Source: Opitutales bacterium (GTDB taxonomy: Bacteria; Verrucomicrobiota; Verrucomicrobiia; Opitutales; Seribacteraceae). From it: DNA of 60,161 nt. The stretch spans positions 1 to 60,161 of the forward strand of contig JAQWWZ010000002.1 in NCBI GenBank assembly GCA_029254745.1, in the 5' to 3' direction. Shown piece after piece: positions 42,751-48,740 of the stretch (position 1 is the stretch's first letter; every line of letters starts with the position of its first letter). The translations under genes and the position numbers were made by a program. The notes under the pieces are model-generated. The model was not told the DNA's origin. It did not search any database and saw only the letters and a program-made list of their open reading frames with translations.

Positions 42751-45270
42751 ATGAAAATCTTCCACGCTTTTGTTTTATTATGTTCATTTCTTTCAGTTTC
42801 TTACGGATCAACTGAAAGAGATTTTCATTCAATAAACGGACAGAAAATCAAAGGTCTTGTGGAGAAGTTTTTTGAAGATGGTGATATTCTACTTCGGAGA
42901 AGTAAAGACAAACAACTTTTTCGGATTAGCTTGGATATTTTCACAGAAGACGACCAAGCATTTGTAAAGAACAACTTTGCTCCAAACCACGATGCCTTAC
43001 CCGAGTTTCAAAGACCTCTCTCACCATCTGTTCTCAAAGCCAACTCCCGCTACATAGACAGCTTAATCGATCAAAGAATCGGATCGTACAGACTTCGCCC
43101 TAACAAAGTTGCGAGTGAAGAAGTTTTCCTTAGGAGAGCATATTTAAAAATAATCGGTCGTATTCCTACTTTTGATGAGGCCAACGAATTCTTAGAAAAC
43201 CGGGACAGGTCTACGAAAAAGTCTGAACTCATTGACAAACTTTTAGGCAGTCATGGGTATGTAAGTCACTGGTTCAACTTTTGGGCAGACATTTTGCGAG
43301 CCAAACAAAATCTTGGGAACCGTGTTTCTGGAAGGCCTTACATTGATTACATCCGTGAATCGATCGCCACCAACAAGCTTTATGATGTTTGGGTCAAAGA
43401 AATGTTATCTGCCTCCGGCCCCATGTGGGAACGAGGAAATGGTGCAGTTGGTTATTTTATTCGCGATCGAGGTATGCAATTGGACAATATGTCAAATACA
43501 GTTCGAGTTTTCCTCGGAACAAGCTTGGAATGTGCCCAGTGCCATGATCACCCGTTCGACCGCTGGTCACAAAAGCAGTTCTACGAAATGGCAGCCTTTA
43601 CCGAAGGAGCAGGTAACTCTGGTTACAATACCGGTGAAAACATGAGTACTTTCAATAAACTTGTTCGAGCTGAACGAAAAAGGATGAACAGAGAGGATAA
43701 TGTCAATGCCTCTGAGCGAATTAGGCGGGCAAGTTTAAATTTCAATGACATTATGGGTATCGGTTTGGCAAGCATGGGCAATGGAAAGATCAAGCTGCCC
43801 GGTGACTATCAATATGATAATGCCTCCCCCAATCAGGAGATAAAAGCTTCCACAATCTTTGGTCTCACCGCAGAACTTGATGAAAACCTCAAGGTTACGG
43901 GTTCAAGATCTTCTTATGCAAATTGGGTAGCCTCTGAGTCTAACCCTAGGTTTACCGCCGTTATTGTGAACAGACTATGGAAAGAAGCCTTTGGGCTAGC
44001 ATTCATCGAACCATTGGACAACATGATTGATGATACCATGCCCACGCACCCCAAACTGCAGCTTCACCTTGAGAAAGTTATGGTGGCACTAAATTACGAT
44101 ATAAAAGAATTCTTGCGTATAATTTACAACACCCAAGCATTTCAACGTGAGGCTCCCAAACCAGATATGATGGCTCGCGATAACAAAGACACAATTATGC
44201 CACCGGAAGTTAAGTGGGTACTTGCCGGCCCAAACCTAGAAGCTCCAACTCGTGGAAGTATTCCCTATTTTTATCAGGGACCACTTATGGAAAGAATGTC
44301 TGGTGAGCAGCTCTGGGATTCTTTAGTAGCCCTAAACTTTTCAGATGTAGACACACGACAAATTAAAAGAGGAGATTCTTACAGTGCCTATGAAAGCTAC
44401 CTTGAAATGACAGGGGAAGAATTATTTGCTTTAATGATGAAACGCGCGGGGCTACAGGCTGGTGCGACAGCAGCTCCAAAAAAAGAAATGGAAATGGCTT
44501 CAAAACTTGGTGAACCTATCAACGCTGAATGCCCACTTAAACCTGGTCGTGCGATTGATCCATCCTTGAAAGCGCTTAATGAAAAAGGTGAAACCATTGG
44601 GTTTTGTTGTCGTTCTTGCCTGAACCGTTTCAAAGAAAGCCAACCTCGCCCAGCTGGTTCAACCGCATCGAAGGAAACAGATATGAAGTTCGGTGACCCT
44701 ATCAATTCAGACTGCCCGATCAAACCTGGCCGTCCTGTAGATCCGTCTCTTTTAGCTTTGAACGATGACGGCGATACTGTAGCTTTCTGCTGTCGCTCTT
44801 GCTTGAAACAGTTTGAACAGAAACAAAATGCGCCCCCAGAAGTCGCTAAAACATCCGCCAAACCTGCTCATGACTATGGGAATTATGTCAGGGATCAAAA
44901 CTCCATACGAGCTTCCGAAGTTGGTTCTCCAGCACCAGCGGGGCACTTAATCAGAGAGTTTGGGGCTTCTGATAGAGATCAAATTGAGGGGAGCCACAAA
45001 CAGGCATCGGTCACACAAGTTCTAAATCTTTTGAACGGATATGTTGAAAAACAATTACTCAAGAATGACAAGGTGCAGATACTTGAAGTCGTTAAAAGAG
45101 GCAAAACTATAGACACCAAAATCGAAAATGCATTCCTTGCTGTTCTGAATCGAGAACCGAGCAGCTCAGAAATTCGGACATTTAAGGATGCGGTGCGTGG
45201 AAGTAGTCATCCAGAAAAAGACTTAATTTGGGTACTGGTTAATAGCCACGAGTTCCTGTTTGTTCAATAA
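42751..45270 (+). CDS. Secreted DUF1549/DUF1553 protein with SHD1 and tandem YHS-like modules
   Basis: An 839-residue exported protein. Signal peptide (KIFHAFVLLCSFLSVSYG), SHD1 domain (about 25-78, FHSINGQKIKGLVEKFFEDG), DUF1549 (about 100-290, with SASGPMWERGNG and LGTSLECAQCHDHPFDRWSQ) and DUF1553 (about 385-830, FTAVIVNRLWKEAFGLAF). Inserted in the DUF1553 part are two copies of a 61-residue module: FGDPINSDCPIKPGR... then FCCRSCLKQFEQK (residues about 587-632 and 648-692). Each copy carries CP and FCC..C, like YHS/TRASH heavy-metal-binding domains. Such proteins pair with DUF1501 proteins in Planctomycetes and Verrucomicrobia. No enzymatic role is established; metal or redox binding is inferred. 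DUF1501 follows after 44 nt with a good AAGGAGA ribosome-binding site. Confidence 0.88.
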   Translation: MKIFHAFVLLCSFLSVSYGSTERDFHSINGQKIKGLVEKFFEDGDILLRRSKDKQLFRISLDIFTEDDQAFVKNNFAPNHDALPEFQRPLSPSVLKANSRYIDSLIDQRIGSYRLRPNKVASEEVFLRRAYLKIIGRIPTFDEANEFLENRDRSTKKSELIDKLLGSHGYVSHWFNFWADILRAKQNLGNRVSGRPYIDYIRESIATNKLYDVWVKEMLSASGPMWERGNGAVGYFIRDRGMQLDNMSNTVRVFLGTSLECAQCHDHPFDRWSQKQFYEMAAFTEGAGNSGYNTGENMSTFNKLVRAERKRMNREDNVNASERIRRASLNFNDIMGIGLASMGNGKIKLPGDYQYDNASPNQEIKASTIFGLTAELDENLKVTGSRSSYANWVASESNPRFTAVIVNRLWKEAFGLAFIEPLDNMIDDTMPTHPKLQLHLEKVMVALNYDIKEFLRIIYNTQAFQREAPKPDMMARDNKDTIMPPEVKWVLAGPNLEAPTRGSIPYFYQGPLMERMSGEQLWDSLVALNFSDVDTRQIKRGDSYSAYESYLEMTGEELFALMMKRAGLQAGATAAPKKEMEMASKLGEPINAECPLKPGRAIDPSLKALNEKGETIGFCCRSCLNRFKESQPRPAGSTASKETDMKFGDPINSDCPIKPGRPVDPSLLALNDDGDTVAFCCRSCLKQFEQKQNAPPEVAKTSAKPAHDYGNYVRDQNSIRASEVGSPAPAGHLIREFGASDRDQIEGSHKQASVTQVLNLLNGYVEKQLLKNDKVQILEVVKRGKTIDTKIENAFLAVLNREPSSSEIRTFKDAVRGSSHPEKDLIWVLVNSHEFLFVQ

Positions 45271-45314: not shown

Positions 45315-46613
45315 ATGAAATTATCACCAAACACTATTGACGAACTTGGGCGTCGAGAATTCATTGCTAACGCTGCAAAAGCCTGCCTCGGAGTTGGTCT
45401 TATGCCCATGGCTGGTTCTTACATTCACAACAGTGTTAAAGCTCTTACCCCTGGGGCTAGACCAGCAGCAGCAAGACATGTCATTTATCTGAACATGTCT
45501 GGTGCTATGTCTCACCTAGATACATTCGGGCCTAAACCAAACAACCCTGACATTCAAGGCCCTGTAGAATCGATTGCAACCAGTGCAGATGGTGTGATTT
45601 TATCGGAAAACCTTCCTCTCACCGCTCAGCACATGCACAACTCGGCTTTGATAAAAACCATGGTTACAAGCCAAGGTGCACACATGCAAGCCAGTTACTT
45701 GATGCACACGAGCTATCTTAAACGGGGAACAATTGTGCACCCAACATTTGGAAGTTGGGTATCAAAACTTTCAGGTCCAATAAACCGAACTATTCCCCGT
45801 AATGTAAAGATCGGTGGTGGTGGTGGTGGTGCCGGTTTCCTTGAAGCTGAACACGGTGCCCTTCCCATAGGAAATCCCAAGTCTGGTCTCGCAAACAGTG
45901 CCATGGCCTCATACTTGGATCAAGAGTCATTTGGAAATCGTATTACTATGGCTGAAAAGCTAAATGTTAACTTCACTGCCCAATACCAACAAAAACAAGT
46001 CCGAGCTTATTCCAATCTTTACAAAGACGCGATCAAGTTAATGGATAGCGATGACCTCAATGCTTTTGACATCACCAAAGAGCCTAAGGCGATGCATGAT
46101 CTGTATGGCACTTCCAATTTTGGACAGGGCTGCCTTTTGGCCCGCAGGTTAGTTGAAAACAAGGTTCGTTACATTGAAGTATCCCGTGGCGGTTGGGATA
46201 CCCACGGTAATAATTTTGAAGCTGTTGCCAATAACTGTGCAGATGTAGACAAAGCACTTGGTGCATTACTTTTGGATTTAGAAATGAGAGGATTGCTTAA
46301 GGAAACTTTAGTGGTATTAACATCTGAGTTTGGCCGCACTCCAAATATCAACGCCCGCGATGGTCGTGACCACTGGCCTTACTGCTTCACCGCATTCATG
46401 GCAGGAGGTGGAGTCAAGGGTGGCACCAGCTATGGGGAAACGGACGACAGAGGTCGTTTACCTTCGGAAGGTAAACCAATTAAGCCAGAAGACCTAAACG
46501 CAACCATAGCATATCTTTTGGGATTGCCGCTTAATGATGTTCAGTACTCACCTTCGGGCAGACCTTTTACCGTAGCACACAAAGGGGAACCGTTGTTTGA
46601 TGTCATCGCGTAA
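45315..46613 (+). CDS. DUF1501 family protein
   Basis: A 432-residue member of the DUF1501 family, sulfatase-like fold proteins that always accompany DUF1549/1553 proteins in Planctomycetes and Verrucomicrobia. The N-terminus GRREFIANAAKACLGVGLMP resembles a twin-arginine signal (Arg-Arg-Glu-Phe), suggesting Tat export. Characteristic segments are HVIYLNMSGAMSHLDTFGPK, PRNVKIGGGGGGAGFLEAEH with a glycine run, RYIEVSRGGWDTHGNNFEAV, and VLTSEFGRTPNINARDGRDHW. The Asp, His and Glu of the last motifs are like metal-site residues in alkaline phosphatase folds. Function unproven. The ribosome-binding site AAGGAGA lies 9 nt before ATG 45315. The cytochrome gene follows after 18 nt. Confidence 0.92.
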   Translation: MKLSPNTIDELGRREFIANAAKACLGVGLMPMAGSYIHNSVKALTPGARPAAARHVIYLNMSGAMSHLDTFGPKPNNPDIQGPVESIATSADGVILSENLPLTAQHMHNSALIKTMVTSQGAHMQASYLMHTSYLKRGTIVHPTFGSWVSKLSGPINRTIPRNVKIGGGGGGAGFLEAEHGALPIGNPKSGLANSAMASYLDQESFGNRITMAEKLNVNFTAQYQQKQVRAYSNLYKDAIKLMDSDDLNAFDITKEPKAMHDLYGTSNFGQGCLLARRLVENKVRYIEVSRGGWDTHGNNFEAVANNCADVDKALGALLLDLEMRGLLKETLVVLTSEFGRTPNINARDGRDHWPYCFTAFMAGGGVKGGTSYGETDDRGRLPSEGKPIKPEDLNATIAYLLGLPLNDVQYSPSGRPFTVAHKGEPLFDVIA

Positions 46614-46631: not shown

Positions 46632-48740
46632 ATGGTTAAGACCAGCTTCCCACTCTTAATTCTAATCTTTTTTTCTAGCTTTCTCGCTTATGGAACCGAA
46701 CCTTTTAGGGTTTTTAAAACCCCCAAAGGACAGTCATTCGAAGGACAAGCTGTAGGTTATGAGGGTCAAACCTTTATACTTTCTAACAAAAGTGGGAAGT
46801 TTTTCAAGGTTCCCCTGAACGCACTGTCCAAAGAGGATCAAACTTATTTAATCAGTGGAGCAAGGTTGAATCGTATCCCTAAAGGAATGCCCACCAAGCT
46901 CCCATCCTCTTCATCTGAACCCACCAAAGCAGGTGACGGCGACACAGTTTCAACCAAAGGGATAGATTTTCACTCTCAAATCATGCCCATTCTGGTCCAA
47001 AATTGTAATGAGTGCCACCAAGCTCCTTATGAAAAAAATGGGCGTATAAAGAAACCAAAAGCTGGGCTTAGGTTTGATAATTACAAAATGCTCATGCAGG
47101 GATTTGGTGATGACCCAGTCGTTATCCCCGGGGATGATGAAGGAAGCTTGTTAATGGAAGTGGTGACTCTTCCTGCCAATGACGATATGATTATGCCACC
47201 CAAAGGAGATCCTCTATCCGCAGAGCAGATTAGCCTCCTTCGCCGTTGGATACTTGAAGGTGCCACAGAAAAACCATCTGGAAGAGTTGTCACTACTGCG
47301 GCATCACCAACGGCTGCAACTGCGGAAGCTTCAGATTCTGATGAAATCCGAAAATCACCACCACCTATAAAAGTTACCTTTCGGCCTGGCTCTTTTTTCT
47401 CGCATGTCCCGGTTTTACTAGGTGTGAGCCTAGAAGAAGCCATGGCAAAAGCTGCAGAATCAAAACCGAAACCAGGAGAACCCATTGATTTTGATAAGCA
47501 TGTCTTACCCATTCTCGAAGAAAGGTGTAATGACTGCCATCACGCCCCTTTCGACCGGTCTGGGCGACTTGTTAACCCCAAAGCAAGCCTAAGATTTGAT
47601 AGTTTTGTCGAGGTGATGAAGGGAAATTTAGACGGTCCTGTTATCGTGGCTAATGATCTAGAAAAAAGCCGCCTCTACTCCGTTCTAAACCTCCCTGAAG
47701 ATGACGATTTATTCATGCCCCCCAAAGGTGGTCCTGTTGAAGCGGAAAAAATTGATATTATCAAAAGATGGATATCTGAGGGTGCCCAACCCTCAAAAAA
47801 CAGTATATCCGCGTCTAAGGGTGGTATACCAGCACCTGATGAACCGGTCAGTTTTAACCATCATATTTTACCACTCTTTGAAAAGAAATGCCTCGAGTGT
47901 CATGGTGCTCCTTATGTAAGAAATAGTCGTACGATTAAACCAAAAGCAGGTTTACGGCTAGATACCTATGAATGGGTGATCAAAGGAAACCTTGATGGTA
48001 TGATCGTTACCCCGGGCGATCATACCGATAGCACCTTATACAGTGTGGTCACTCTGGACAAAGAAGACCCGGAAATTATGCCTCCTAAAGGCGGGCCTTT
48101 GGTCGAAGATGAAATTACCATGATAAAAAGATGGATTCTCGAAGGTGCATCCGAAAAACCAGCGGCAACAGCAGCGGACCCGAATGCCGCCCCAAAGCTA
48201 ACAAGCGCTAAACCGGTGTTAGCGACTACTAATTCTAAAACTTCCATCTTGGATATAATTTCCAAGAGGCTCAGTAGTCCATCCAAGTCATCTTTAAAAG
48301 CAGCTGAAAAAACCGGGGCCCTTGTTCGCCCACTTTCAGAAAAAAGCCCACTTGTTAGAGCCGAATTTTCTTCCTTTTCAAGTGAAGTACAAGACTCCAA
48401 CCTTGGGGCTTTCAGTGGGATCAAAAACAACATCTCCCACCTCGATGTTTCTCGTACGAAGATTACCGATAAAACTCTTAGCGTTGCCGGTGGATACCCG
48501 AATCTGACCTGGATTAGTGCAAGGAACACAAAAGTTTCTGATGGTGGACTCAAGTATTTGTCCAAATTGAAGTTTTTACAGTATTTAAATCTTTCGGGAA
48601 CTCAAGTATCAGACAAAGGAATGAGAGATCTAGCTTCAATCAAGACCCTCAATGAGATATACCTATGGAATTCCAAAGTGACTGAGTCAGGAGTAGAGAA
48701 ACTAAGACAGAATTTGCCAGACGCTAAAATAATTTTCTAG
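46632..48740 (+). CDS. Secreted SHD1 / triple planctomycete-type cytochrome c / LRR protein
   Basis: A 702-residue exported protein. A signal peptide (SFPLLILIFFSSFLAYG) and SHD1 domain (about 22-75, RVFKTPKGQSFEGQAVGYEG) come first. Three PSCyt1-like modules of about 100 residues follow, each with one haem site: CNECH (Cys at about 125), CNDCH (about 299), CLECH (about 420). Each module has a distal methionine in MPPKG, the probable sixth ligand (DDMIMPPKG, DDLFMPPKG, PEIMPPKG). The C-terminus has leucine-rich repeats (LDVSRTKITDKTL, LNLSGTQVSDKGM). It closes the DUF1549/1553-DUF1501 operon, so the three products probably form a surface complex; electron transfer is inferred from the haems. 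Confidence 0.88.
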   Translation: MVKTSFPLLILIFFSSFLAYGTEPFRVFKTPKGQSFEGQAVGYEGQTFILSNKSGKFFKVPLNALSKEDQTYLISGARLNRIPKGMPTKLPSSSSEPTKAGDGDTVSTKGIDFHSQIMPILVQNCNECHQAPYEKNGRIKKPKAGLRFDNYKMLMQGFGDDPVVIPGDDEGSLLMEVVTLPANDDMIMPPKGDPLSAEQISLLRRWILEGATEKPSGRVVTTAASPTAATAEASDSDEIRKSPPPIKVTFRPGSFFSHVPVLLGVSLEEAMAKAAESKPKPGEPIDFDKHVLPILEERCNDCHHAPFDRSGRLVNPKASLRFDSFVEVMKGNLDGPVIVANDLEKSRLYSVLNLPEDDDLFMPPKGGPVEAEKIDIIKRWISEGAQPSKNSISASKGGIPAPDEPVSFNHHILPLFEKKCLECHGAPYVRNSRTIKPKAGLRLDTYEWVIKGNLDGMIVTPGDHTDSTLYSVVTLDKEDPEIMPPKGGPLVEDEITMIKRWILEGASEKPAATAADPNAAPKLTSAKPVLATTNSKTSILDIISKRLSSPSKSSLKAAEKTGALVRPLSEKSPLVRAEFSSFSSEVQDSNLGAFSGIKNNISHLDVSRTKITDKTLSVAGGYPNLTWISARNTKVSDGGLKYLSKLKFLQYLNLSGTQVSDKGMRDLASIKTLNEIYLWNSKVTESGVEKLRQNLPDAKIIF

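Follow-up and report, generated by a model that had tools for sequence, protein, structure and literature searches.

Paired TRASH/YHS-like Modules Inside a DUF1553 Protein of an Opitutales Bacterium and Their Association with PSCyt Haem Proteins

Background

The TRASH superfamily, with its YHS-type domains (PF24273, PF04945), comprises small units of ~45 residues that carry the pattern C...C-x3-C, fold as a beta-hairpin plus helix and often occur in tandem in metal-transport proteins. According to PMC4999995, L24 is placed in the TRASH family, the copper chaperone fold of NosL is derived from duplicated TRASH-like units, and the TRASH/treble-clef group consists for the most part of structural zinc sites through which contacts are made. 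The YHS domain appended to the adenylyl cyclase of Mycobacterium phlei is described in PMC4626032 as a probable Cu2+ sensor with the ligands D178, C181, C204 and C208, such that an acidic or Cys ligand precedes the first Cys by three positions. A separate group, the PSCyt2-PSD1 proteins of Planctomycetes and Verrucomicrobia, combines PSCyt2 (DUF1549) and PSD1 (DUF1553) domains; according to passages of PMC5615132, the PSCyt/PSD proteins mix their domains freely and have functions that are reported as unknown, and the partner domains that it gives are CBM and protein-interaction domains, not YHS/TRASH.

We describe here a locus in which these two sets of parts meet. It lies in a 60,161-nucleotide stretch of DNA from an Opitutales bacterium (assembly GCA_029254745.1, contig JAQWWZ010000002.1), to which we refer throughout as the window. 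The host protein resembles other PSCyt2-PSD1 proteins in that both domains score over their cut-offs, a CAQCH motif is present and a DUF1501 gene follows downstream, but its PSD1 domain is split by two putative metal-site modules. These share the Cys pattern, approximate size and tandem arrangement of TRASH/YHS domains, may have a similar fold to judge by their predicted beta-beta-alpha elements, and differ from them in having Asn instead of Asp or Cys three positions before the first Cys, in an extra vicinal Cys (FCC), in missing the PF04945 cut-off and in being located inside a haem-c protein that is presumably exported. The M. phlei cyclase is likewise a protein with an appended module; however, it is an intracellular signalling enzyme with a D-x2-C ligand pair where the window modules have N-x2-C, and NosL is a fused single fold whereas the window has two free modules. 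The same module type is joined to c-type haem domains in a set of PSCyt1-LRR-YHS proteins (loci L132, L194, L204 and others), whose base architecture is that of the third gene of the window operon, although there it is the PSCyt1-LRR protein that carries the module, in a C-terminal position, and not a DUF1553 protein that holds it internally. A search of open-licence PMC text found no paper that joins YHS/TRASH to DUF1549, DUF1553 or PSCyt1, and an electron-transfer role for TRASH modules is not described in the literature that was found. The parts (TRASH/YHS, PSCyt2-PSD1 and the mixing of PSCyt/PSD domains) are known, the architecture is new and the exchange of a module for a haem domain is unusual.

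The host protein and its operon

The features of the locus, all on the plus strand, are the following.

42751..45270, plus strand: host protein of 839 residues, with a signal-like N-terminus, PSCyt2 (DUF1549) and an insert-split PSD1 (DUF1553) (open reading frame, Pfam)
43054..43605, plus strand: PSCyt2/DUF1549, residues 102-285 (Pfam, 144.4 bits, E 6.1e-42)
43531..43545, plus strand: CAQCH c-type haem motif, residues 261-265 (sequence)
43906..44193, plus strand: PSD1/DUF1553 part one, profile positions 2-99 (Pfam)
44503..44643, plus strand: TRASH/YHS-like module 1, residues 585-631, N..CP....G..IGFCC..C...F (Pfam, sequence, predicted beta-beta-alpha in AlphaFold2)
44686..44826, plus strand: TRASH/YHS-like module 2, residues 646-692 (Pfam, sequence, predicted beta-beta-alpha in AlphaFold2)
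44857..45189, plus strand: PSD1/DUF1553 part two, profile positions 143-242 (Pfam)
45315..46613, plus strand: DUF1501 protein, directly downstream of the host gene (Pfam, E 4e-104)
46632..48740, plus strand: PSCyt1-LRR protein, third gene of the operon, with three PSCyt1 haem domains and leucine-rich repeats (Pfam)
47004-47207, 47526-47729 and 47889-48092, plus strand: PSCyt1 haem domains of the PSCyt1-LRR protein (Pfam)

Both PF07583 and PF07587 score above cut-off in the host protein (144.4 and 97.5 bits), and the second of these matches, PSD1, consists of two stretches with both modules between them. A first-pass annotation of this DNA had proposed modules interrupting a DUF1553 protein beside a haem-protein operon, and Pfam and the neighbouring genes agree with it on both counts, the PSD1 profile being split (43906-44193 and 44857-45189) around the modules. 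An NCBIfam search gave no match above cut-off. The motif CxxCH is the attachment site of c-type haem. Among the 11 Cys residues of the host, one lies in the N-terminal signal-like segment (called by eye from its hydrophobicity), two are those of CAQCH and the remaining eight fall within the modules; since all non-haem Cys residues of the presumed mature protein are thus in the modules, we count their distribution in favour of a metal site. The host is presumably exported to the periplasm.

The gene order is well conserved. DUF1501 and PSCyt1-LRR genes follow directly downstream in 29 of the 30 loci of relatives, the exception (L114) stopping at a contig end; SufS comes next in 26/30, and a divergent multihaem-TPR gene stands upstream in 15/30, counted as seen with some sequence missing. 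The number of CxxCH motifs in the PSCyt1-LRR partner ranges from one to three between lineages, and the number of modules in the DUF1553 protein varies likewise. To judge by weak Pfam matches, the DUF1501 protein may be alkaline-phosphatase-like.

A diverged tandem repeat of the TRASH superfamily

The two modules are in the same frame, with CPLKPGR starting at 44530 and CPIKPGR at 44713, so that they are spaced by exactly 183 nt, or 61 codons. Over the core, 29 of 47 residues are identical, a value reached by none of 100,000 shuffles (the best had 12); over the full 61-residue unit the identity is 30/61 for protein and 103/183 for DNA, and it is because of this divergence at the DNA level that Tandem Repeats Finder did not report the repeat. 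Both the two copies with a 61-residue, 183-nt period and the position (44509-44825) that the first-pass annotation had given them stood up, the latter to within a few residues of the module cores. An assembly artefact or one-off duplication as the origin of the repeat was ruled out, given that relatives have it too.

The annotation's assignment to a YHS/TRASH type holds in part. On the isolated region, TRASH_HVO_1752_C (PF24273) scores 38.7 bits against a cut-off of 27 (27.5 on the whole host), but YHS (PF04945) reaches 25.2 bits, below its cut-off of 30.3, and the modules are therefore placed in the TRASH superfamily and not in PF04945. By their sequences they are divergent, treble-clef, YHS-like members at the superfamily level. 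The profile zf-FCS stops at 22.3 bits against a cut-off of 22.4, and other families score lower. Proteins reached with the module alignment include two (L132, L125) that are over the YHS cut-off, and two others (L078, L080) that read by eye as a P1B-ATPase-like and an RND membrane-fusion-like protein. Profile searches of solved structures gave weak matches to zinc proteins only (best E 0.033), of the zinc-finger or zinc-ribbon type: ZMYM5, Ta0938, RLP24 and RPA12. The main matches in a sequence search of solved structures with the window pair, artificial alpha-repeat proteins, were set aside as chance matches through 'DPSL.AL' repeats.

The modules of 33 proteins were compared: a named set (largely from the genomes of the distribution search described below), two further family genomes and the window. 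The Cys triad C...C-x3-C is kept in 48/48 module copies, and within the longer pattern N-x2-C-P ... F-C-C-x2-C the N, the first Cys and the P are likewise present in 48/48 and FCC in 47/48; the copies were gathered by a pattern in which the N, the first Cys and both outer Cys residues are obligatory, such that copies without these would escape, and the protein sequences of relatives were additionally read by eye. The one FCC exception, module 2 of L048, retains the outer two Cys residues of the motif and has lost one. Relative to the ligand set of the M. phlei YHS domain, the modules have Asn in the position of the acidic ligand and one more, vicinal Cys; the residue three positions before the first Cys is Asn in 48/48 and never Asp or Cys, which counts against a metal site.

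In the AlphaFold2 model of the host (29 sequences, mean pLDDT 76.2), beta-beta-alpha elements are predicted at residues 603-630 and 664-692, with a pLDDT of ~80-87 for the modules and values below 50 for the linkers 571-586, 632-645 and 695-708. The pair modelled alone gave identical elements at a mean pLDDT of 76.5 in the best of five models (56-68 in the other four). The modules are accordingly modelled as tethered on flexible or disordered linkers. Foldseek searches of the PDB with the whole host and with the module pair gave no match with E < 0.001; the list for the pair consists mostly of ribosomal L24e and RLP24, all of them weak. With VIA, the module pair matched NosL at Z 3.4 and L24e/RLP24 at Z 2.0-2.7, below an unrelated ciliary chain at Z 4.2, and the NosL and L24e matches came from the search with the pair, not from the whole-host model. 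Such as they are, these weak matches of a predicted fold agree with the sequence assignment.

Distribution among relatives

The host was searched for in 57 genomes, 37 of which belong to the same genus or family. At least one module is present in 31/31 relatives' copies that could be read across the insert site (including L030, which has ambiguous module residues and was read by eye), so the insert is not specific to a strain. Among the 37 genus or family genomes, copies were read across the site in all but six (G014, G019, G023, G024, G025 and G033, some of them incomplete). The first-pass annotation had regarded an insert universal in the family, with an established other role, as fatal to its reading; the insert is indeed universal among the 31 orthologues read, and no other role is established for it. 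The 33 compared proteins have two modules in 15 cases, one module in 11 and, in 7, a single module preceded by a CxxCH domain, several of the reading frames being cut by contig ends and L106 lacking its upstream part. The nearest named relatives are Opitutales MAGs and single-cell genomes, for which 'marine' is an interpretation.

Eleven open frames in the window's own genome match PSD1 (two at contig ends), and the sole other module matches there come from a 149-aa protein on contig C9 (L047:7458-7907, minus strand). This exported-looking protein has two YHS-like modules and a YHS score of 30.9 bits, over the cut-off; its second module is degenerate, with FWSSSA replacing FCC..C.

Exchange of a module for a haem domain

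In seven of the 33 proteins (L089-L093, L095 and L096) the site of module 1 is taken up by a different segment, in which CMSCH or CMNCH occurs along with KEMPP. This segment matches PSCyt1 (PF07635) along its length at 14.4-21.7 bits in the four that were scanned (L089, L091, L093 and L095; L031 is the same protein as L095), which is below the cut-off of 22, and the CxxCH motif is present. In the module tree the remaining module of these proteins groups with the second modules (support 97/95 for six of the seven, 93/78 for L095). In a host tree with the insert removed, the two-module proteins of the window, L086 and L087 group with the haem-domain protein L095 at 100/100. Grouping all four haem-bearing rows of this tree together is rejected by the AU test (p 0.00125; the group was defined after the tree had been inspected), and hence the haem/module state changed at least twice, through replacement or through recombination of one lineage with another. 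At the insert site of L014, the closest module-free paralogue in the window's own genome, there is a segment of unrelated sequence, from which we conclude that the PSD1 loop is permissive.

Modules joined to haem proteins elsewhere

The association with haem domains extends beyond DUF1553 proteins. A CxxCH motif is found in 8 of 36 module loci of other kinds, as fusions to PSCyt1-LRR proteins (L132 and L150 were checked with Pfam), and PSCyt1-LRR proteins elsewhere bear their modules at the C-terminus. Among 246 genomes of Planctomycetota, 89 contain a match to the module at E <= 1e-5. Of 29 new best loci from that phylum, nine encode hosts with CxxCH; PSCyt1 is over its cut-off in 9/9 of these, and YHS is found at E <= 0.001 in 8/9. 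The CAQCH[DN]HP motif of DUF1549 is absent from all 29 (no host frame was found for L213). As a measure of scale, PSCyt1 matches number 15 in the window's own genome and 53 in G034. Together with the haem-c domain found in place of module 1 in relatives, these fusions strengthen the link to a haem-containing complex that the first-pass annotation had drawn.

DUF2231 membrane proteins are also among the module hosts. Module and DUF2231 occur together in L124-L126, L142, L150, L198 and L200 (judged by sequence in L124, L126 and L142), sometimes along with PSCyt1 in one protein.

Possible roles of the modules

The reading that we favour, with confidence about evenly balanced against doubt, is that these are thiolate metal-site modules that serve a PSCyt redox complex as mobile cofactor or docking arms. 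The tandem duplicates, on their disordered linkers, would be carried on a variable loop within a PSCyt2-PSD1 haem-c protein that is presumably exported. Each would most likely bind one thiophilic ion, with Cu(I) or Zn(II) favoured because three or four thiolates are available; the putative ligands are C594, C619 and C623 in module 1 and C655, C680 and C684 in module 2, and C620 and C681 might act as an extra thiol ligand or as a redox partner. The partners in a putative periplasmic complex would be the DUF1501 protein and the multi-haem PSCyt1-LRR protein, with the PSD1 slot open to metal modules and haem-c domains alike. Metal binding, the identity of the metal and the cofactor or docking role are in this scheme presumptive. 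Haem replacement, PSCyt1 fusion and the conserved operon were all counted for the link between module and haem, and the finding of a haem-c domain in place of module 1 hints that the two belong to a single redox machine. Weighing against the reading are the missed PF04945 cut-off, the Asn ahead of the first Cys, the weakness of the structural matches and the score of the replacing haem domain, which stays under the PSCyt1 cut-off. Because the module is tied to PSCyt proteins by insertion, fusion and haem exchange, it offers a handle on the function of the complex.

The modules might instead be structural zinc fingers for docking, in which Zn(II) would provide stability and the fingers would contact proteins or glycans with no part in redox or metal traffic. 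We regard this as unlikely, although the mostly structural zinc sites among the TRASH/treble-clef relatives (PMC4999995), the zinc-type character of the weak PDB matches, the flexible linkers and the variable copy number all suit it; the exchange with haem-c and the repeated fusion to PSCyt1 indicate cofactor-bearing roles, and the extra vicinal Cys (47/48) would be superfluous for a structural site.

Our preferred redox-complex reading could be taken further, with the PSD1 loop as an exchangeable cofactor socket in which a c-type haem and a TRASH thiolate site, the latter probably for copper, would interchange in evolution because both pass electrons to and from the PSCyt haems. This seems to us improbable; if the module were an electron-transfer site, the TRASH/YHS group would gain a function beyond sensing and trafficking.

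A periplasmic sensor or chaperone of copper (or another metal), in line with the sensing or delivery suggested in the first-pass annotation, would regulate or load its partners, for example for haem-copper oxidases; this we consider similarly improbable. The case for it draws on the probable Cu sensor of M. phlei (PMC4626032), on NosL among the weak structural matches, on relatives of the module in what look, by eye, like metal-efflux proteins, and on the copper background of the lineage. In five family genomes (G000, G016, G017, G031 and G034) COX1 and SCO1 were each found in 5/5, a CusA-type RND pump was above cut-off in 1/5, and the heavy-metal P-type ATPase model TIGR01525 matched in 0/5 as against 14/14 controls; the lineage therefore probably uses copper without recognisable P1B export, to judge by these profiles, a background that is compatible both with and without a copper role of the modules and neither proves nor excludes one. 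On the other side, there is no recognised copper gene among the profiled genes of the conserved operon (by which a copper-resistance operon was also ruled out), SCO1, encoded elsewhere (contig C52), is already a delivery route, and the M. phlei case is a fusion to an intracellular signalling enzyme whereas the host here has no signalling domain.

That the PSD1 loop simply tolerates insertions, the modules being passengers with no specific role in the complex, is very unlikely, for while the variable copy number (one, two, or one beside a haem domain), the varying linkers and the unrelated segment of L014 would fit a site at which any passenger is tolerated and replaced, neutral passengers would decay, and at least one module persists in 31/31 relatives read, with the triad intact in 48/48 copies and a single Cys loss seen only in module 2 of L048.

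Additional observations

At window positions 45813-45831 the triplet GGT is repeated perfectly (6.3 copies), giving the DUF1501 protein a stretch of consecutive glycines. Host residues ~790-838 (window 45120-45260) have a weak sequence likeness to DUF4214/phycobilisome-linker domains, which is also seen in L094 and L100 (in L100 the linker similarity, again weak, is located around residues 127-173), and phycobilisome linkers are included in the weak Foldseek matches of the whole-host model. Loci L118-L122, L127 and L131 (for example L119:3499-6126) represent a different system, of long Opitutales proteins, mostly ~870 aa, with one C-terminal module; the protein of L119 has Ig-like and TSP3 repeats, and its upstream genes resemble, by eye, those for TolR/ZorB-type membrane proteins.
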